In this document: piece by piece, positions 1-42,662 of the stretch
Position numbering within the stretch: the stretch's first letter is position 1
Layout: the number at the start of each line of letters is the position of its first letter
Assembly: GCA_013203475.1 (NCBI GenBank)
Contig: JABMNV010000184.1
Location: forward strand, 1-55,837
Source: Acidobacteriota bacterium
GTDB taxonomy: Bacteria; Acidobacteriota; Vicinamibacteria; Vicinamibacterales; SCN-69-37
Direction of reading: 5' to 3'
DNA length: 55,837 nucleotides
The notes under the pieces: model-generated
What the model was told of the DNA's origin: nothing
Database searches by the model: none
The model's input: the letters and a program-made list of their open reading frames with translations, nothing else
Position numbers and translations under genes: made by a program

Positions 1-92
1 AGAACACCGGGTGATCCGTTCGTGAGATGTCGGCCTGCACGAGCGGACGCTGCGATGACAGGCCCGACACCTGGTCCACGTCAACCGTGTGC
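1..92 (-). pseudogene. Truncated unknown gene at the left window edge
   Basis: Read on the minus strand from position 92 down to 1, one frame is open for about 31 codons and uses mostly G or C in the third position, like real genes of this genome; the peptide includes LVQADISRTDHPVF. The frame continues beyond the window. Upstream it runs into the 46-bp direct repeat and meets a TAA stop there, so the gene has lost its 5' part at the repeat boundary. I cannot name the family. The opposite-strand frame has poorer codon use. Confidence 0.4.
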
Positions 93-138
93 GCGAAGCT
101 TATGTCTTTTGGGTAGCCCCTTTATACGGCCTATCGGC
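93..138. repeat. 46-bp direct repeat, copy A
   Basis: A sequence identical over 46 bases to 6507-6552. It starts GCGAAGCTTATG and ends GGCCTATCGGC, and contains two small self-complementary blocks (GGGTAGCCC and GGCCTATCGGC). On its left it abuts a truncated minus-strand gene. It matches no tRNA or rRNA end that I recognise. It could be an att-like site, a scar or end of a mobile element, or an assembly junction. Confidence 0.9.
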
Positions 139-350
139 GAGGTCCGGGGCGTGCCGGCGCCGTTCCCGAAGGTCCTCGGCCTTGGAACACTCGGCAGGAT
201 GGCGCTCGCCATCAACCGGTTCCTGATCCGGACCAGCCGGTCGCGCTTTTCGTACCAGATCGTCGTCGTCGCCGAATCAACGCCAGACGTGGACTTCGTC
301 CTCCGCGACGCCAAACAGCGCAGCGACCTTCGGGACGTCGCCAATGGTTA
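139..350 (+). pseudogene. Possible 3' remnant of an unknown gene before the dehydrogenase
   Basis: A plus-strand frame is open from the end of the 46-bp repeat to a TAA at 348-350, which overlaps the dehydrogenase ATG at 344. Third codon positions are strongly G/C, and a stop overlapping the next start is typical of an operon, so this may be the C-terminal remnant (about 70 residues) of a gene cut off by the repeat. The peptide has no motif I recognise. Nothing else is visible between the repeat and position 343. Confidence 0.3.
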
Positions 351-1729
351 ACGTCGCCGATCTTCGTCTGGCCGCACAGAAACGCCTCCCGCGGGTGGTG
401 TTCGACTATATCGACGGAGCCGCAGACGCCGAGGTCACCCTGCGCGAAAACAGCCGCGCCTTCCAGGATGTGACATTCCGTCCGCGGTCGGCGGTGGCGA
501 CACCGAAGTGCGACCTCAGCACCACCGTGCTCGGCACCAGGCTCGACCTGCCGTTCCTGCTGGCGCCGATCGGCAGCAGCCGCGTGTTCTATCCCCGAGG
601 CGAGGAAGTGGCCGCGCGAGCTGCCGGAGAGGACGGCACCACATACATCCTGTCCACGCTCTCGGGGTGCCACGTCTCGGACGTGAAGAAGGCCACGTCC
701 GGACCCGTCTGGTTTCAGCTGTATCTCGTGGGCGGGCGCGACATCGCCCTGGGCGGCATTGAGCGCGCGCGGACCGCCGGGTGTTCAGACCTGGTCGTCA
801 CAGTCGACACGCCAGTGGCTGGCATGCGGGAGCGTGACGTTCGCAACGGAATGAAACCGCTGGCGTCGGGCCGTCCGCTGGCGATGCTTCCGCATCTGGG
901 CCAGTTCCTGATGAAGCCCCGCTGGCTTGCCGCCTATCTCGCCGATGGCGGCCTGATGAATTTTCCCAACATCGTCCTGCCGAGCGGGCCGATGCCATAC
1001 GCGGATGTGGGCGCGGCGCTCGAAGCGTCGATGGTGAGCTGGGACGATCTCAAGTGGATTCGTGAGGCGTGGCAAGGCAAGGTGGTCGTCAAGGGTGTAC
1101 ACACGGCCGATGACGCGCGGCAGGCCATGGACGCCGGCGCCGACGCGGTCGTCGTGTCGAACCATGGTGGCCGCCAGCTGGACGGCGTGGCCGCCACCAT
1201 TCGCGTGCTGCCTGAAGTAGTGGCCGCAGTCGATGGCCGCGTCGAGGTACTCCTCGACGGCGGCATTCGCCGCGGCGGAGACATCATCAAGGCGCTGTGT
1301 CTTGGCGCGCGCGCGGTGCTGATTGGGCGCGCGTACGCCTACGGCCTGGGCGCGGCCGGCGGAACCGGCGTGACCAGGGCCATCGATATTCTCCGCGCGG
1401 ACATCGTCCGCACGTTGCAACTTCTCGGTGTGCCGTCGACAGCGGCGCTCGACAGATCGTTAGTAGGGGTGCCAGCAGACTGGCACATTCCTGGGTCCAT
1501 GGGTCCGTGGGTCCGTGGGTTCTCGGTGGCGCTTCGCGCGACCTTTTTCCTAAAGCAAGTCCCTGCGCCGACGGGCGCAGGCTCCGCGAACCTACGCACC
1601 CACGGACCTCCGGACCCGCGGACCGCTTGTCCAACCTACGGACTTACGGACCGCCCCGGTCGGCGGCCGCCGAGTCCCGTCGCCGACTCGATCTCCCTCG
1701 CCACCACCATCAGCCCCGCCTCGTCGTAG
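344..1729 (+). CDS. FMN-dependent alpha-hydroxy-acid (lactate-type) dehydrogenase
   Basis: Member of the FMN-dependent alpha-hydroxy-acid dehydrogenase/oxidase family, a TIM barrel that oxidises 2-hydroxy acids such as L-lactate to 2-oxo acids. The start (MVNVADLRL) matches the family N-terminus. The catalytic stretch SNHGGRQLDG lies near residues 272-281 with the active-site His, followed by DGGIRRGGDIIKAL and GRAYAYGLGAAGG for FMN phosphate binding. The family normally ends near LDRSLV, at about position 1463. Here the frame reads on for about 85 more codons through an interspersed hairpin repeat and antisense to the next gene, stopping at 1727-1729. That tail is unlikely to be functional enzyme sequence. 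There is no strong ribosome binding site. The exact substrate cannot be decided. Confidence 0.85.
   Translation: MVNVADLRLAAQKRLPRVVFDYIDGAADAEVTLRENSRAFQDVTFRPRSAVATPKCDLSTTVLGTRLDLPFLLAPIGSSRVFYPRGEEVAARAAGEDGTTYILSTLSGCHVSDVKKATSGPVWFQLYLVGGRDIALGGIERARTAGCSDLVVTVDTPVAGMRERDVRNGMKPLASGRPLAMLPHLGQFLMKPRWLAAYLADGGLMNFPNIVLPSGPMPYADVGAALEASMVSWDDLKWIREAWQGKVVVKGVHTADDARQAMDAGADAVVVSNHGGRQLDGVAATIRVLPEVVAAVDGRVEVLLDGGIRRGGDIIKALCLGARAVLIGRAYAYGLGAAGGTGVTRAIDILRADIVRTLQLLGVPSTAALDRSLVGVPADWHIPGSMGPWVRGFSVALRATFFLKQVPAPTGAGSANLRTHGPPDPRTACPTYGLTDRPGRRPPSPVADSISLATTISPASS
1493..1652. repeat. Interspersed hairpin repeat built from GGGTCCGT octamers, copy 1
   Basis: The left arm (1493-1522) is four tandem units of GGGTCCGT type; the right arm (1588-1624, plus 1635-1652) is the inverse, with ACCCACGGACC-type units. 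Between them lie a GGTGGCGCTTCGCGC block and a small hairpin (CTGCGCC-GACG-GGCGCAG, 1563-1580). The same order of parts occurs at 3381-3514. The element sits between two convergent genes: it supplies the read-through tail of the dehydrogenase and overlaps the last codons and stop of the amidase on the other strand. It may act as a bidirectional terminator. Confidence 0.8.
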
Positions 1730-3339
1730 AGGCGTCCTGTCAGGGTGAATCCGGTCGGAGTCCCGTTCTCGCGGAATCCGGTGGGAACCGCGATTGATGG
1801 ATGGCCGGTCAGGCTCGTGATGGGGTTGAGACTGGTCGCGCCGTTCAACGTCACCGGGCCCGAAATCACGACGTCCACATCTCGCGTGGCGCGCGCGTAC
1901 TCGTCCATGAGTCGCAGGCGCTCCCGATTGGCCTGCAGGTAATCAACAGCCGTGACGAGATGATACGCGCGCAGATCGTTGCGCACCCTTTGGGCCCGCA
2001 AGCCCGCATCCTCGCCCGAATGGACAACGCCCTCGAAGCCGGCAGCGCGTTCGATGTACTCGATGAAATAGGTAATGTCGCTCTGCGGCGGCTCGATCGG
2101 GCGCATCTCGATACCGGCGGCCGCGAGCGCGGCCACAGCACGGTCGTTGCCGGCCCTGACAGCCGGATCTGTCTCGAGGTCCAAAATCCCTTGGACAACG
2201 CCAACCTTCCGTCCCTTTGGAGATTCGCGCGCGTCCCACGCGTACGGCATGTCACCGGCCACGGCCAGATCGTAGCCATCCGGCCCCGCGATGGCATGAA
2301 GGACGATGGCGCAGTCTTCCACCGTGCGGCAGATGGGACCGATCTTGTCCAGTGTCCAACCCGCGGCCATCACACCGCGGCGACTGACACGTCCGAATGT
2401 GGGCCGCAGGCCGACCACACCGCACCTTACGGCCGGGGAGAGGATGGATCCTCCGGTATCGCTGCCCAGGGAAAACCCGACCAGTCCGGCTGCGGTCGCC
2501 GCACCCGACCCGGCCGACGATCCACTCGACCCTTCCGAGGGAAGCCACGGGTTGTTCGTGCGCCCACCAAACCATTGATCGCCAAATGCGAACTCACCGG
2601 TCGTCAGTTTGGCCACCAGTACCGCCCCGGCTGCCGACAACCTCCGCACCACCTCGGCGTCCTCGTCGATGACCCTGTCCTTGAACGGCTCGGCGCCCCA
2701 CGTGGTGGGAGTCCCCTTGGCCGCGATGATGTCCTTCACGCCGTACGGAATGCCGTGCAACAGCCCGCGATAACGGCCGGCGGCGCTCTCGCGATCCATC
2801 TCGCGCGCCTCGGTCAATGCTCGTTCCCGCGTCAGGTTCACCACGCAGTTCAGCACCGGATTGTGCTGCTCGAGCCGGCGCAGGTACATCTCCGTGAGTT
2901 CAACCGACGTCACCACGCGCCTTCTGACGAGGTCTGCCAACTGCGGAATCGACCAGAACGCCAGGTCGTCAAGCGCGGCGGGCCTCGTCTGCCTCGCCGC
3001 CGTGCCCGGCCGATGCTCTCGCACGGGAATCGACACCGGTATTCCCGGCACCCGTGGGCTGAACAGGATGGGCGACGGCGCGTCATTCGCAGGTGGCGCC
3101 TTGTGCAGTTCGTCTGCGCGCACGAGGATCCGGTTGAGCGAAGCCACCATGCCCTGCTGCTCCGCGTCGCTGTACGAAAGGCCCGCCAGTCGACACGCTT
3201 CGCGAACCATCTCCGGCGTCACACGTCCCGTCTGACCGCCTTGCGTCTGCGCGAAGAGCGCGTCCGCAAAGGGCCCGGACGCCACGCCGAATGCCGACAA
3301 ACTCGCGAAAAAATGACGGCGTGAGAGTGGACTAGACAT
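1636..3339 (-). CDS. Exported amidase (amidase signature family)
   Basis: Amidase-signature hydrolase (GatA/AmiE-like, PF01425 type) of 567 residues that hydrolyses a carboxamide C-N bond. The N-terminus has a Tat-like motif, SRRHFFASLSAFG, followed by a hydrophobic stretch and an Ala-rich cleavage region, so export is likely. The Ser-cisSer-Lys triad is visible: Lys in YGVKDIIAAKG, the two Ser in the GSSGSSAGSG and GSDTGGSI segments. The start is supported by GAGGAAA seven bases upstream of ATG 3339. The C-terminus and stop lie inside the right arm of the hairpin repeat. It is followed in cis by a second, similar amidase, 200 bp upstream in the same direction, probably a tandem duplication. 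The substrate is unknown. Confidence 0.88.
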   Translation of the reverse strand: MSSPLSRRHFFASLSAFGVASGPFADALFAQTQGGQTGRVTPEMVREACRLAGLSYSDAEQQGMVASLNRILVRADELHKAPPANDAPSPILFSPRVPGIPVSIPVREHRPGTAARQTRPAALDDLAFWSIPQLADLVRRRVVTSVELTEMYLRRLEQHNPVLNCVVNLTRERALTEAREMDRESAAGRYRGLLHGIPYGVKDIIAAKGTPTTWGAEPFKDRVIDEDAEVVRRLSAAGAVLVAKLTTGEFAFGDQWFGGRTNNPWLPSEGSSGSSAGSGAATAAGLVGFSLGSDTGGSILSPAVRCGVVGLRPTFGRVSRRGVMAAGWTLDKIGPICRTVEDCAIVLHAIAGPDGYDLAVAGDMPYAWDARESPKGRKVGVVQGILDLETDPAVRAGNDRAVAALAAAGIEMRPIEPPQSDITYFIEYIERAAGFEGVVHSGEDAGLRAQRVRNDLRAYHLVTAVDYLQANRERLRLMDEYARATRDVDVVISGPVTLNGATSLNPITSLTGHPSIAVPTGFRENGTPTGFTLTGRLYDEAGLMVVAREIESATGLGGRRPGRSVSP

Positions 3340-3380
3340 ATGGATTTCCTCGCTCGTTCCTGTCCGTAGGATCTACGAAC

Positions 3381-3514
3381 GGTCCGTAGGTCCGTAGGTT
3401 CCTGGTGGCGCTTCGCGCATCATTCTTCCTGAAGAACTAAGTCTCTGCCCTCGACACGAACGAAGCCCCGGCGCCGAATGGCGCCGGCACCGAGAACCCA
3501 CGGACCGACGGACC
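3381..3514. repeat. Interspersed hairpin repeat, copy 2
   Basis: The left arm GGTCCGTAGGTCCGTAGG (3381-3398) extends into GTTCC; the right arm GAACCCACGGACC... covers 3494-3514. Inside are GGTGGCGCTTCGCGC, shared with copy 1, and a GGCGCC-GAAT-GGCGCC hairpin (3470-3485). It lies between the two amidase genes, 12 bp beyond the stop of the upstream one, where a transcription terminator or mRNA-stabilising stem would be expected. Confidence 0.8.
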
Positions 3515-3525
3515 TGGCGCACGCA

Positions 3526-5334
3526 TCACCCGAGCTTGCTCGGCCTCTGCGTGTAGAACCCCGCCGCATCCTGATACGCCCTCGCCAGCGCAAGGAGCGG
3601 CAGCTCCCCAAAGGGCCGTGCGAAGAACGTCGCGTTGGTCGGCTGGCCGTTGGCCGCGAATCCATTCGGAATGTTGATCGCCGGATAACACGCCAGGTTC
3701 GCCATCGTCGAATGACGCTGAGCCGGATTCTGGGTTCCTCCGCCGCCTCGTCCGCCACCGCGTCCACGCCCCGGGGCGCCTGCCGCGCCCGCACGACCGC
3801 CACCGGCACCGCCGAGACCTCGGCCGCCGGCCGGCGTGGGGGTCCCACCGGTATTGTTCGATGCCACGACGTACACGTCGAGCCCGCGCGTCGCCGTCTC
3901 GAGTTCCATCATCATCATCATGCGAACGCGCTGCTGCTGGAGGAACTCGACGGCCGGCGTTAACCATGCGCTGGGGCGCGAGGCGGCGCGAGCCCCCGTC
4001 ATCCTGCCGGCTCGCATCATGTGGTCGAAATACGCGGCAGACTCCACGCCGATGGCGCTGCCATTTGTGTCAGGCGACGGGATTTCCATCGGCACCAACG
4101 TCGAGACGCCGACCGAACGCAATGTCTCCAGCAACTTGTCCGCGTTGGCCTTCGCGTCATCGTTCGTCAGGCTATCAAACGATTCCTTGATGTAACCCAC
4201 CCGCAGCGCCTTGATATCGAGTCCCGCGTCCCAGTTGAACGGAATATCGGACACGCTCATGTCGCGGCCGTCCCGCCGCGCGATGGCGTGCATGACGATG
4301 GCGCAGTCTTCGGCATGACGGCAGATGGGCCCGAGCCGATCCTGCGTCCATGACAGGGCCATCACGCCGTAGCGGCTGATGCGTCCGAACGTCGGCCGCA
4401 GGCCGGCCAGGCCGCATCGCGCCGACGGACTCAGGATCGATCCGCTGGTCTCAGTCCCGATGGCGAATGCCACGCAGCCGGCGGCGGTGGCAGACGAAGG
4501 TCCGGCTGACGATCCACTGGACCCGACCTCGGGATCCCACGGGCTCTTCGTCTGGCCGCCGAACCAATTGTCGCCGGACGCGAGTTCACCCGTCGTCAGC
4601 TTCGCCAGCAGCACCGCGCCGGCGTCACGCAACATCTCGACCACGCTGGCGTCGTAGTCCAGCACCTGCTCCTTCAGCGGCTCCGTCCCCCACGTCGTCC
4701 GGTACCCCTTGACCGAGATGATGTCCTTCGCCCCCCACGGCATGCCATGAAGAGGCCCTTTGTATTTTCCGGCGGCGATCTCCGTATCGGCCTGCTTCGC
4801 CTGGGCGCGGGCGACGTCATCGAGGAACGTCACGACGTTGTTCAGCACGCCGTTGTACCGATGCAGACGTGCCAGATACATCTCGGTCAATTCGAGCGAG
4901 GTGACCTGTTTCGTGCGAATAAGTTCAGCCAGATGGCGCACCGGCCAGAAGGCCACATCTTCGAGGTTGGCAGGCCGCCTCAGGGTCGGCGCAGTACTCA
5001 AGTTGAACGGCCGCGCTGTCTTGTCGACGTTGATGCCGGGCACCAGCGCGCTGAAGTGGAACGGGGGCGACACGTCATTCGGAATGTCGATGGCGCGAAT
5101 GGCCTCATAGCGAGTGAGGCTCTGGTTCGCCCCGTTGACCATCGCCTGACGCTCTTCTTCGGTGGCCTCAACGCCGGCCAGCGCCAGCGCCGCGGTCACC
5201 ATTTCCAGGGTCACGCGACCGGCAGCCTGTTCCTGCATCTTCGCCCACAAAATGCCTGGCGCCAGCGTTGCGCCCAAACCCGCGCCCGCGAAGTGGGCGA
5301 TGAACCGGCGACGAGTGTCGTGCGCAACGGACAT
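3526..5334 (-). CDS. Exported amidase with a Gly/Arg-rich insert
   Basis: Second amidase-signature protein, closely related to the one downstream. I chose ATG 5334 because GGGAGGT lies just upstream and it gives a clean Tat signal (TRRRFIAHFAGAGLG); the open frame extends 50 codons further up but looks non-coding. Catalytic motifs: Lys in WGAKDIISVKG, then GSSGSSAGPSS and GTETSGSILS. A low-complexity insert of about 35 residues (GGRGLGGAGGGRAG..., nucleotides about 3715-3840) interrupts the C-terminal half and is absent from the neighbouring paralogue. A run of five Met (MMMMM) lies just before it. Likely exported amide hydrolase; substrate unknown. It probably shares a transcript with the downstream amidase. 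Confidence 0.87.
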   Translation of the reverse strand: MSVAHDTRRRFIAHFAGAGLGATLAPGILWAKMQEQAAGRVTLEMVTAALALAGVEATEEERQAMVNGANQSLTRYEAIRAIDIPNDVSPPFHFSALVPGINVDKTARPFNLSTAPTLRRPANLEDVAFWPVRHLAELIRTKQVTSLELTEMYLARLHRYNGVLNNVVTFLDDVARAQAKQADTEIAAGKYKGPLHGMPWGAKDIISVKGYRTTWGTEPLKEQVLDYDASVVEMLRDAGAVLLAKLTTGELASGDNWFGGQTKSPWDPEVGSSGSSAGPSSATAAGCVAFAIGTETSGSILSPSARCGLAGLRPTFGRISRYGVMALSWTQDRLGPICRHAEDCAIVMHAIARRDGRDMSVSDIPFNWDAGLDIKALRVGYIKESFDSLTNDDAKANADKLLETLRSVGVSTLVPMEIPSPDTNGSAIGVESAAYFDHMMRAGRMTGARAASRPSAWLTPAVEFLQQQRVRMMMMMELETATRGLDVYVVASNNTGGTPTPAGGRGLGGAGGGRAGAAGAPGRGRGGGRGGGGTQNPAQRHSTMANLACYPAINIPNGFAANGQPTNATFFARPFGELPLLALARAYQDAAGFYTQRPSKLG

Positions 5335-5446
5335 GGAGACCTCCCTGGAGATGGGCGCCATTGTAGCCGCAGACGGGCGGCAGACGGCGACAATTCGTGA
5401 CGATTCGCCCGCGACACCGGCGTGTGGTGGACTCCCGTGGCCGGAA

Positions 5447-6155
5447 ATGGATAACACTCCGCTCAAGATGCGCATCAGCGACATGAACTGGATGCAGGTG
5501 GAAGACTACCTCCGGCGTGACGATCGTGCCGTGCTGCCGCTCGGCAGCACCGAGCAGCACAGCCACCTGCGACTCACCGTGGACTGCATTCTGCCGGAAC
5601 GGGTCGCCGTCGAAGCCGCCGAGCCGCTGGGTGTCCCGGTCTTCCCGGTTGTGTCCTACGGCGTCACGCCGTACTTCCGCGAATATCCCGGCACCGTGTC
5701 GTTACGGGTCGAGACCCACCTTCGCGTGGTGGGCGACATCCTGGACAGCCTGGCCCACAGTGGATTTCGCCGCATCCTGATCGTTAACGGCCACGGCGGC
5801 AACGGCGCGGTGCAGCAGTTCGCGCAGGAGTGGACGGCCGGTCACGCCGGTTGTCGCGTGCTGTTTCACAACTGGTGGAGCGCACCCAGGACCTGGGCCA
5901 CGGTGCAGGAGATCGATCCTGTGGCGTCCCACGCGTCCTGGATGGAGAACTTCCCATGGACGCGGCTGCCGGGCATTGCCATGCCGGACGCGGCTCGGCC
6001 GATGGTGGATCAGGCGCGCGTACGCGCGCTCGATCCGGTGGCGTTGCGCCAGTACCTTGGCGACGGCAACTTCGGCGGCCGATACCCAGAGGTCTGACGC
6101 GGACATGTCCGCGCTCTGGCAGGTCGCCGTCGAGGAGACGCGAGACACCTGCTGA
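5447..6155 (+). pseudogene. Creatininase-family amidohydrolase, C-terminal frameshift
   Basis: Creatininase-family (creatinine amidohydrolase-like) metal enzyme. Metal ligands are visible in GSTEQHSHLRLTVD and NGHGGN. ATG 5447 or ATG 5468 could be the start. The frame stops at TGA 6095-6097 right after GNFGGRYPEV, about 20 residues short of the family. The missing end (DADMSALWQVAVEETRD, then TGA 6153-6155) is present in another frame and is restored by removing one base near 6095. The lesion is therefore a single-base insertion or a sequencing error. The metal site lies upstream of it, so a product with a shortened tail could still fold. Confidence 0.8.
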
Positions 6156-6506: not shown

Positions 6507-6552
6507 GCGAAGCTTATGTCTTTTGGGTAGCCCCTTTATACGGCCTATCGGC
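6507..6552. repeat. 46-bp direct repeat, copy B
   Basis: Identical over 46 bases to 93-138, in the same orientation and 6.4 kb away. It cuts the ketopantoate reductase fragment in the middle of a conserved motif and is followed directly by an AT-rich patch. In this copy the last block extends to a perfect GGCC-TATC-GGCC stem. Confidence 0.9.
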
Positions 6553-6650: not shown

Positions 6651-6672
6651 TGAGGTTGATCCGATCGCGTGG
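6651..6672. repeat. IS3 terminal inverted repeat (downstream of orfB)
   Basis: 22 bases, TGAGGTTGATCCGATCGCGT plus GG, a perfect inverse of 7889-7910. The orfB stop lies 9 bp inside. Confidence 0.93.
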
Positions 6673-6681
6673 ACGGGTTAA

Positions 6682-7557
6682 CTACGCTACCTGACTCATC
6701 TGGACGTACCGCTTTTCGTAGGCAGCCGGACTGATCCGGCCCGCCGACGAATGTCGTCGCTGCTGGTTATAGAACACTTCGACGTAATCGAACAACTCCA
6801 TCTTGGCGTCCGCGAAACTGGCGAACTGGTCGGCCAATTCGCTTTTGACCGTCGAGAAGAAGCTCTCCATGACGGCATTGTCGTAGCAATTACCCCGGCG
6901 GCTCATGCTGCAGACCAGCCCCCGTGCCGCCAGGCGGTCCCGATAGTCTTCACTGGCGTACGGGGAACCTTGATCCGAGTGGAAGAGCATGCCGGTGGTG
7001 GAACCGCGCCGTTTCAGCGCCATGTCCAACGCCTTGAGGGCCAAATGTCGATCGTTGGACGGGCTGACCGCCCAGCCCACCACGTACCGCGAGAACAAGT
7101 CGAGGATCGCGGCCAAATAGATCTTGCTGCTGGTGCCGATCACGAATTCGGTGGTGTCGCCGACACAGCGCTGATTGGGAGCGTCGGCGGTAAACGCGCG
7201 AGCCAACACGTTCTCCGCGATCGGTTGATCGTGGTCGCTCACCGTCGTGTGCTTATACCGGCGGCGCACCCGCGCGACGAGGCCGTCTTCCTGCATCAGG
7301 CGAGCCACGCGTTTCCGACTGACGTGTTCCTCCCACTCGATGAGGTCATCGTGGACCCGTGTGCTGCCGTAATTGTGGCGGCTTCTGGTGAATGCGGTGT
7401 GGATCAGAGCTTTGAGCCGACGGTCTTCTCGCGCGTGGACCGACTCCGGGCGTGTCTGCCACGCATAGAATCCGCTCGCGCACACGCCGAGATTTCGTCA
7501 CAACACGGTCACGGGGAAGGAGGCCTTCTCTGCGGCGATCCAGGCAAACTTTACGCC
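6682..7557 (-). pseudogene. IS3 orfB transposase, interrupted by TGA
   Basis: DDE integrase-type transposase: first Asp in GDTTEF, second in HSDQGSPY, Glu in NAVMESFFS, ending with the usual SPAAYEKRY tail. The N-terminal part is readable upstream as KFAWIAAEKASFPVTVL, but TGA at 7498-7500 then occurs where the family usually has Cys (VTVLC-R-LGV), and the rest (RNLGVCASGFYAW) continues in the same frame. The longest open stretch begins at 7485. Normally orfB is made as an OrfAB fusion by -1 frameshifting; the stop would cut that product after about 20 OrfB residues. Confidence 0.85.
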
Positions 7558-7888: not shown

Positions 7889-7910
7889 CCACGCGATCGG
7901 ATCAACCTCA
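7889..7910. repeat. IS3 terminal inverted repeat (upstream of orfA)
   Basis: 22 bases complementary to 6651-6672, ending CCTCA at 7910. The orfA start lies 24 bp inside. Confidence 0.93.
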
Positions 7911-18492: not shown

Positions 18493-18960
18493 ATGCTTTC
18501 AGTAGGCACTTCTGCTCCAGACTTCGAGCTCCGCAATCAGACCGGTCAAATGGTCCGACTTTCAAATTTTCGCGGCCAGAAACACGTCGTCGTCGCATTT
18601 CATCCTCTGGCGTTTACGCCAGTCTGCTCACTGCAGATGCAGAATTACGAAAAGGCTCTCACGCAACTCGATTCATTGGACGCACACGTGTTGGGACTGA
18701 GCGTGGACGCTGGTCCGTCAAAACAGGCGTGGGCCGAGTCGCTGGGCGGGATCAGTTTTGATTTGTTGGCTGACTTTCATCCGCACGGGCACGTCGCGTC
18801 ACTGTTTGGGGTCATGCGCGAAGACGGCATCTCTCAACGCGCCACCTTCATCGTCGACAAGGCAGGCCTGATCGCCTGGGCCAAGCTCTACGAGATTCCG
18901 CAGCAGCCAGACAACGACGAAGTGATGGCAATGCTGGTTAATCTGAAATCTGAAATCTGA
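18493..18960 (+). CDS. Peroxiredoxin (AhpC/TSA family)
   Basis: 155-residue thioredoxin-fold peroxidase that reduces H2O2 or organic peroxides. The peroxidatic Cys is in AFTPVCSLQMQNYEKAL; a typical N-terminus (SVGTSAPDFELRNQTGQMV) and FIVDKAGLIAWAKLYEI follow. I see no second Cys, so it is probably a 1-Cys type. AAGGA lies four bases before ATG 18493. The last six codons (NLKSEI) are encoded inside a heptamer tandem array. Confidence 0.88.
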   Translation: MLSVGTSAPDFELRNQTGQMVRLSNFRGQKHVVVAFHPLAFTPVCSLQMQNYEKALTQLDSLDAHVLGLSVDAGPSKQAWAESLGGISFDLLADFHPHGHVASLFGVMREDGISQRATFIVDKAGLIAWAKLYEIPQQPDNDEVMAMLVNLKSEI

Positions 18961-18999
18961 AATCTGAAATCTGACATCTTGAATCTGACATCTTGAATC
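18940..18999. repeat. Heptamer tandem array (AATCTGA)n
   Basis: About eight 7-bp units, first AATCTGA and later AATCTGAC/ATCTTGA variants. The array begins inside the 3' end of the peroxiredoxin gene, provides its stop codon and runs into the spacer before the FtsX remnant. Confidence 0.9.
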
Positions 19000-42017: not shown

Positions 42018-42662
42018 CTACTGAATCACGACAAAACGCCACAAGCGAGCGGTTTCCTTCTCGCCAACGTACTTGCTGATTTCCTTGTCGAACTGCGCCT
42101 TGGTCTTCCAGGGTCGGTATTCATTGAACTCGCGCACCATTCGGGCGCCAGCGCCAGGGATGCTCAGGATGTCTGCGTCAGTCGCCGTGTTGAGGTCCAC
42201 CGGAATGAAGACGTACTGCTTGAGGCGATTCGTCTCGTCCTGTCCGACGTACTTGCTGATTTCCTTGTCGAACTGGGCCCACGTCTTCCAGGGACGGTAT
42301 TCACCAAACTCGCGCACCATTCGATTACCGGCGCCAGGAATCAACAAGATCTCTTCGGGAGTGCCCGTGTTCAGGTTGACGTGAACAAATGCCTGCAAAT
42401 AGAAGGCCGCGATCTGCGCCTCAGTCAACTTGTGGTCCACGAGAAACGTGTTGAAGTCCACGATGCTGGCAAAGGGACGGGCCGCGACCAGGGCCGTCGC
42501 GATATCGGCCGTCATGCCTGGCATTGCGGCCAGTTCAGCTTCGGGAACGCTGTTGGCATCCAGTAACCCGGCCCCGACCTGGCCGTGAGTGGTGGAACCG
42601 ACAGCGAAAGTCAGCGCGGCGACACAAAGAGCACCGAGAAAGGCTGAGCGAAGACGTGACAT
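42018..42662 (-). CDS. Exported helix-hairpin-helix protein with an internal duplication
   Basis: 214 residues with a signal peptide (SAFLGALCVAALTFAVGSTT) and GGAGGAG before ATG 42662. Three ComEA-type helix-hairpin-helix units follow. The last two are near-copies: ILLIPGAGNRMVREFGEYRP and ILSIPGAGARMVREFNEYRP, each followed by WKT-AQFDKEISKYVG-ET. The matching DNA lies at about 42066-42160 and 42246-42340, 180 bp apart. HhH modules bind DNA non-specifically, as in ComEA uptake; whether this exported form does so is not shown. Confidence 0.8.
   Translation of the reverse strand: MSRLRSAFLGALCVAALTFAVGSTTHGQVGAGLLDANSVPEAELAAMPGMTADIATALVAARPFASIVDFNTFLVDHKLTEAQIAAFYLQAFVHVNLNTGTPEEILLIPGAGNRMVREFGEYRPWKTWAQFDKEISKYVGQDETNRLKQYVFIPVDLNTATDADILSIPGAGARMVREFNEYRPWKTKAQFDKEISKYVGEKETARLWRFVVIQ

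Follow-up and report, generated by a model that had tools for sequence, protein, structure and literature searches.

A palindromic doublet family at gene ends

The window analysed here, the whole 55,837-nt stretch of DNA from an Acidobacteriota bacterium (contig JABMNV010000184.1), carries two copies of a composite palindrome at gene ends, copy 1 at 1492-1652 and copy 2 at 3381-3514. Comparison with related genomes places them in a genus-level family that resembles repetitive extragenic palindromes (REPs), whose members are doublets of inverted GC hairpins with arms made of tandem 7-8 nt units, and which adjoin stop codons, mostly between convergent genes. The explanation that we favour, with confidence that falls just short of even, is that these doublets are bidirectional 3'-end modules, most likely acting as a terminator or a stabiliser.

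Anatomy of the element

The first-pass annotation of this DNA had claimed two copies with an identical order of parts, and both are present: an octamer array (GGTCCGTN), a foot (GGTTCNNGGTG) and a hairpin (GCGCTTCGCGC), followed beyond a spacer by another GC hairpin and the octamer array in inverted orientation. The left 54 nt of the two copies are 83% identical, and the left arm and foot of copy 1 show 93% complementarity to the right arm and foot of copy 2; the right arm of copy 1 is patchy and extends to 1652. With up to three mismatches allowed, the octamer GGTCCGTNGGTCCGTNGGT has eight matches in the window, all of which (8/8) fall in the two copies, against an expectation of 0.39, and none of 100 shuffles reached eight, which rules out a chance origin of these matches. 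The assembly (3.58 Mb) contains the 15-mer GGTGGCGCTTCGCGC exactly twice, and a DNA search of it with copy 1 returned, apart from the query, nothing but copy 2 and a single array on contig C135. An Rfam search of window positions 1-6000 gave no match to a known RNA family at E up to 1.

Read from either end, the element consists of a half-element, namely an array of 7-8 nt units, a foot GTTCNNGGWG, a GC hairpin and a T-rich tail RNCTTNNTT, and a full core element is this half followed by the same parts inverted (14 core matches in the family described below). A scan of 32 halves, two from each of the 14 cores plus four singles, found the hairpin in 29, most of which have GGAG or GGTG as the foot. 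The first hairpin (H1) is conserved as a structure. Its stem, compared across 13 cores, has two variable levels, the third and the fourth counted from the loop (C-G, T-A, G-C; G-C, C-G). All 26 of the 26 cells at these levels pair, whereas 10000 shuffles averaged 14.7 and never exceeded 22 (0/10000 as high). The corresponding test of the second hairpin (H2) gave 75 of 84 paired against a mean of 52.8, a figure biased by the choice of the best hairpin, so that the H1 test is the cleaner one. In the first alignment, 12 of 34 predicted pairs had changed on both sides; a MAFFT alignment of the cores misplaced H2 and was left out of the counts.

Distribution across the genus

The search covered 60 genomes, of which 7 belong to the genus, 7 more to its family and a further 46 to the order. 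A DNA search found more copies, mostly in genome G006. A covariance model built from six elements, and run with stricter filters, matched 22 distinct places (the six included) at E up to 0.01 in 7/7 genus genomes, with 1 to 9 matches in each of these drafts. At the same threshold it matched none of the seven other genomes of the family (0/7) and gave four marginal matches (E 0.002-0.01) in the 46 other genomes of the order. Counts of the foot and hairpin pattern with up to two mismatches in the 60 relatives stayed near the reversed control outside the genus. A standard GTTC...GAAC core is found in 14 of the 22 matches, one of which (G006:C40:5285) has an atypical interior. An occurrence of only two copies in the genome would, according to the first-pass annotation, have spoken against a repeat family. 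That is literally the case for hairpin-bearing copies in this metagenome-assembled genome (MAG), and a large family within the source genome is rejected; the family is genus-wide instead, with nine matches in one relative. The source genome (G000) also holds array-only copies on C65, C135, C2, C95 and C179. The octamer pattern, searched across named genomes, was found in at least 17 stretches, two in Acidobacteria MAGs and the others in unrelated taxa.

The unit of the arrays mostly differs between genomes, and the rule is not strict. The GGTCCGTN unit makes up the arms in the window and in most G006 elements, GTCCAGR those of two G001 and two G006 elements, GGTCCTGR those of both G002 elements, and GGTTCATC or GGTTCAT those in G003 and G004. 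Exceptions are G001:C36, which has GGTCCGTC units, and G000 itself, where C179 carries GGTCCTGR and other places carry GGTCCGGG-type arrays or, in one case, AATCTGA. No unit contains a run of three or more G, GGG occurring only at some unit borders (by eye). Arrays of GGTYC/GTYC have an 8 nt period in at least 27 and a 7 nt period in at least 42 of the 60 genomes, which is a lead only, since the reversed control was also raised in several.

The palindromes may also be looked upon as a mutational by-product without function, in which slippage at gene ends lengthens short arrays and template switching in the palindrome keeps the inverted arms similar. This would suit the hairpin-free arrays after stops (G000:C2, G000:C179 and the AATCTGA array at 18940) and the fact that the two arms of one element mostly share a unit family (by eye; G006:C68 is an exception), but it leaves unexplained both the shared foot, covarying hairpin and T-rich tail at dispersed loci and the presence of one unit at several loci of a genome. 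We consider such an origin improbable.

Position relative to genes

For each of the 22 model matches, a stop codon lies no farther than 25 nt away on one side or both. The matches occupy 15 convergent, 7 co-directional and no divergent junctions. The 126 background junctions, taken from the rest of the window and the fetched flanks and not from the whole genome, comprise 15 convergent, 91 co-directional and 20 divergent ones (Fisher p = 9e-8 for the convergent bias), with convergent gaps holding 3408 of the 15951 non-coding bases. The caller gave 14 convergent matches, and G001:C18 was assigned as the 15th because its left neighbour is a YgjP-like protein, which is 69% identical to that of G006 and ends 10 nt before the element. 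By class, 11 of the 14 core matches and 4 of the 8 non-core matches are convergent. A random placement of the copies with respect to genes, the outcome that the first-pass annotation had named as fatal to its proposal, is contradicted by these counts.

The convergent bias and the long, strongly pairing arms would also suit an element acting at the level of DNA, which would form a cruciform or be bound by a protein (gyrase or a nucleoid protein) at the sites of supercoil accumulation between convergent genes. Such an element gives no reason, however, for directional T-rich tails or for stop proximity in the seven co-directional cases, and we hold it to be very unlikely.

T-rich tails and a putative role in termination

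The sequence 3' of the hairpins is rich in T. Over the 29 halves, T occupies 129 of the 261 positions in the first 9 nt and A occupies 22, and at least four T are found in these 9 nt in 24 of the 29 halves, against 8% of the 9-mers of the window. The hairpins are directional because their 5' side is not A-rich. In a few halves a strong terminator occupies the hairpin slot, the stem being followed by GGTTTTTTC in G002:C476, by GACTTCTTTT in G006:C40:4671 and, as judged by eye, by GTTTTTGTG in G006:C16:8544.

If the doublets are 3'-end modules, each half would read in the direction of the gene before it, in the order of stop, a few array units, foot, hairpin and T-rich tail, and between convergent genes the two halves would meet back to back. 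Transcripts from both sides may end at the hairpins or get trimmed to them, and the element would then serve as a bidirectional terminator or as a 3'-end stabiliser. Because the T tract is offset from the stem, termination is the part of this proposal that we can only infer.

Several observations weigh against the proposal. The T tract begins 3 nt past the stem and is broken (RNCTTNNTT), and because of this late start the TransTerm-like tail scores are low, with only 7 of 29 halves above the 90th percentile of the background. The terminator role put forward in the first-pass annotation is plausible in view of the tails, but a simple terminator scan called one of the four half-elements in the window and made two hits in total against 2.6 expected from shuffles. 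Two tails from the same element do not count as independent observations. Eight of the 22 matches are array palindromes with other or no cores, found via their arms; G002:C407 has a single short stem, six matches, three in G003 and three in G004, combine arms of the GGTTCAT type with cores of another kind, and G005:C240 lacks a hairpin core altogether. The gene calls came from a purpose-written codon-usage caller, whose overlap limit was widened after it had missed the dehydrogenase at copy 1. Among 13 other arrays, picked by hand, six lie in sense after a stop, one lies inside an open reading frame (ORF) and three lie between divergent calls. Finally, at gene ends that are shared between genomes, one junction of G001 (beside amidase 2) is almost empty, with 12 bp between the stops that read as an element tip, and one of G000 (between the BNR-repeat and YgjP-like genes) holds four GGTCCTGR units without a hairpin.

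A GGTCC octamer array at G000:C135 (L185 2005-2055) lies inside a predicted ORF on the coding strand and is possibly an in-frame insertion.

Possible turnover at shared gene ends

The flanking proteins reveal three sites shared between genomes. The end of amidase 2 carries copy 2 in G000 and an element with different arms in G006 (C26). At the site shared by G001:C20 and G002:C476, both neighbours are conserved and the arms are different. The third site is the junction of a BNR-repeat gene with a YgjP-like gene, found in G006, G001, G000, G003 and G004 (52-69% identity to G006). It holds a GGTCCGTN palindrome in G006, a GTCCAGR palindrome in G001, and GTAG-type REP dimers in G003 and G004, the TAG of the REP being the stop in G003. 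In G002, a GGTCCTGR palindrome is next to the BNR gene and an extra gene lies before the YgjP-like gene; in G008, from another genus, an A-tract/T-tract terminator comes next after the BNR gene, with another gene beyond it.

Simple inheritance of one element with concerted arms is weakened, because at the two shared sites that can be compared the cores resemble one another no more than cores elsewhere do, and because REP dimers occupy the BNR/YgjP junction in G003 and G004. Repeated occupation of one gene end by different palindromes fits these sites better. A hairpin may be tolerated or favoured at such junctions, where palindrome families may replace one another. A bolder version, which we think rather unlikely, is that gene 3' junctions are sockets for interchangeable palindromic modules, in which REP-like hairpins have captured tandem arms and favoured 7-8 nt units have been spread over the junctions of each genome by a copying process.

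Relation to Y1 transposases

Genes for Y1 transposases (PF01797) were found in 7/7 genus genomes and in 44 of the 60 overall. The element itself lies beside none of the 11 Y1 loci from genus genomes, some of whose contigs end nearby. These 11 loci and three from other genera of the family were scanned for GG(A/T)G with a GC stem immediately after it. Around the Y1 genes the scan found 11 hairpins with a GGAG foot, a TTC loop and a 9 bp stem at three of the 14 loci (G005, G009 and G012), that is, at one of the 11 genus loci (G005) and at two of the three others. At the G005 locus a tandem GAAGACCTCC array lies between two such hairpins. The hairpins resemble the half-element in foot and loop and differ from it in stem sequence, and the covariance model gave weak matches at these loci (E 0.014, 0.0003 and 0.076). 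The same scan of the 55.8 kb window gave four matches, two of which are the H2 halves of the two copies.

Judged by these resemblances, the half-element is likely descended from GGAG-footed REPs, and it may have spread with the help of a Y1 transposase. The REP-like family of the first-pass annotation is supported in its architecture, and similar hairpins flank Y1 genes, but the element itself is at none of these loci and its membership among the REPs is only putative. The finding of GGAG-footed hairpins at three of 14 loci brought REP-like descent into the best explanation, and it also shifted a little weight from that explanation to a rival, namely that the family is purely selfish and comparable to REPINs (REP doublets forming hairpins) or miniature inverted-repeat transposable elements (MITEs). 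Such an element would be moved in trans by a Y1 (IS200/IS605-type) transposase and would have no 3'-end function, insertions elsewhere having been purged. The inverted hairpin doublet with its GGWG foot, the transposase genes in every genus genome and the weak model matches agree with this, as do the GTAG-type REP dimers at the BNR/YgjP junction and the position bias and TAG-stop supply known from REP dimers (PMC3733652). Against it, no genus Y1 locus is flanked by the element and a GGWG-footed hairpin of that layout is missing from the vicinity of the gene in 10 of the 11, copies are few, no clean empty site or target duplication was seen, and T-rich tails on the inner side of each hairpin are not predicted. 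We regard a purely selfish element as possible but less likely than not.

Other repeats were observed, some of them near transposase genes. Long hairpins (AAAAAGACGTCGGGTGTCTTTTTC...) lie on both sides of Y1 genes in G002 and G003 (L125 1260-2047, L126 1323-2043), with a similar hairpin on one side of a Y1 gene in G006 (L132 around 1868). GTAG-type REPs (CGTAGGGCCCGCTG...CAGCGGGCC) stand beside Y1 genes in G003 and G004 (L127 1581-2194, L129 2027-2049) and form the dimers at the BNR/YgjP junction (L248, L249). Within the window, a 46 bp exact direct repeat occurs at 93-138 and 6507-6552, 6.4 kb apart, the second copy adjoining a transposase-like ORF (6682-7485). Perfect 22 bp inverted repeats at 6651-6672 and 7889-7910 enclose two ORFs, one IS3-type integrase-like (by eye), and probably mark an insertion sequence. 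Two tandem copies of 180 nt, 73% identical, lie within one predicted gene at 42023-42382.

Genes at the two copies

Copy 1 was said to lengthen a hydroxy-acid dehydrogenase by about 85 codons and to supply the stop of the convergent amidase, and both statements hold. The ORF has about 87 extra codons because its match to the FMN_dh profile ends at residue 374 of 461; single-stretch matches to full-length relatives in the PDB end near residues 352-385. The stop of amidase 1 lies on the minus strand within the outlying right-arm units of copy 1, and its protein ends in ...RRPGRSVSP*, where the G001 and G006 orthologs end in ...RRPTLKG* and have no element at that place (by eye). The claim that the copies overlap stops fails for copy 2, which ends 12 nt from the stop of amidase 2 (Table 1). 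Elsewhere in the window, a peroxiredoxin-like ORF (18550-18960, Pfam AhpC-TSA) has a 7-nt AATCTGA array (18940-18993) at its 3' end, and its stop sits inside that array, the arrangement being the same and the unit another.

Table 1. Parts of the two copies, adjoining genes, and hairpins at Y1 transposase genes (window positions unless a locus is named)
Feature	Position	Strand	Remark
FMN-dependent hydroxy-acid dehydrogenase ORF	344..1729	+	continues across copy 1; profile match stops at residue 374 of 461
Copy 1 left octamer array (TGGGTCCG)	1492..1520	+	within 3' end of the dehydrogenase ORF
Copy 1 left foot GGTTCTCGGTG	1518..1528	+	
Copy 1 hairpin H1 GCGCTTCGCGC	1529..1539	+	
Copy 1 T-rich tail 3' of H1 (GACCTTTTT)	1540..1548	+	
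Copy 1 hairpin H2	1562..1581	-	tail GACTTGCTTT at 1561-1552; scored terminator-like
Copy 1 right foot GTTCGCGGAG	1582..1591	-	
Copy 1 right octamer array	1590..1624	-	
Copy 1 outlying right array units	1634..1652	-	include amidase 1 stop, 1636-1638
Amidase 1	1636..3339	-	convergent with dehydrogenase; stop inside copy 1
Copy 2 left octamer array (GGTCCGTA)	3381..3399	+	
Copy 2 left foot GGTTCCTGGTG	3397..3407	+	
Copy 2 hairpin H1 GCGCTTCGCGC	3408..3418	+	
Copy 2 hairpin H2	3468..3487	-	minus-strand tail GGCTTCGTT
Copy 2 right octamer array	3496..3514	-	12 nt from amidase 2 stop
Amidase 2	3526..5334	-	3' end carries element in G006 too; 12 bp junction in G001
GGAG-footed hairpins at Y1 gene, G005	L131 37-148, 689-867		
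GGAG-footed hairpins at Y1 gene, G009	L134 512-1390		
GGAG-footed hairpins at Y1 gene, G012	L136 1234-2073		

Comparison with known systems

Neither the element nor such arrays in Acidobacteria are named among the best-ranked matches in the open-access literature, and these likewise contain no hairpin doublets whose tandem arms vary by genome and no exchange of such doublets at one gene end; most subscription papers lie outside this scope. If the favoured explanation is true, REP doublets and 7-8 nt tandem arrays, two poorly explained classes of repeats, would be joined as occupants of one gene-end position, and the orthologous sites found here allow concrete tests of unit turnover, mobility and termination.

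GC hairpins with a T-rich 3' side, downstream of stops and one per direction, liken the element to an intrinsic bidirectional terminator. Two studies describe inverted repeats after stops in E. coli (PMC6060812) and stem-loops in convergent junctions (PMC1590033). A GC-rich stem-loop downstream of a stop codon is found here too, whereas the T tract is broken and set 3 nt off the stem, and the element belongs to a repeat family with tandem arms.

Heptamer arrays are known as GGGAATC in Xanthomonas and GGGGAYT in Nostoc, and the downstream ones lie mostly within 50 bp of a stop on the coding strand or overlap it (Rehm, 2015; PMC4692102). The same source gives 70 and 75 inverted array pairs for two Xanthomonas genomes, reports that most arrays have the same neighbouring genes in two species while their length and sequence vary, and finds transcript starts or stops to be more frequent at repeats able to form quadruplexes than at control repeats. 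Short tandem 7-8 nt units and inverted pairs at stops are common to both systems. Only 16% of the Xanthomonas arrays, however, lie between convergent ORFs (PMC4692102), while the units here have runs of GG and rarely GGG, many pairs enclose hairpins with T-rich tails, and the unit differs between species of one genus.

The closest likeness is to REPs, bacterial interspersed mosaic elements (BIMEs) and REPINs, which share the inverted hairpin doublets and the position at convergent stops (PMC3733652; Bertels and Rainey, 2011, PMC3116915). Convergent REPs mostly lie less than 20 bp from both stops, and their termini often supply a TAG stop; in a few genomes REP dimers are embedded in longer palindromes, and Y1 genes with other inverted repeats occur in Acidobacteria (Di Nocera, 2013; PMC3733652). 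Short palindromic hairpins in inverted doublets are found in the 14 of 22 matches with a core, and the matches as a set are extragenic, adjoin 3' ends and have a convergent bias. The foot, however, is GGAG or GGTG and not the GTAG or CGTC of REPs, there are 1-9 matches per genome and not tens to hundreds, the element itself was not found at the 11 Y1 loci from the genus, though GGAG-footed hairpins of like layout stand at three of the 14 loci, and the outer arms are 7-8 nt tandem arrays whose unit varies between genomes. REP dimers at convergent stops and the Xanthomonas GGGAATC arrays are the precedents for this family.

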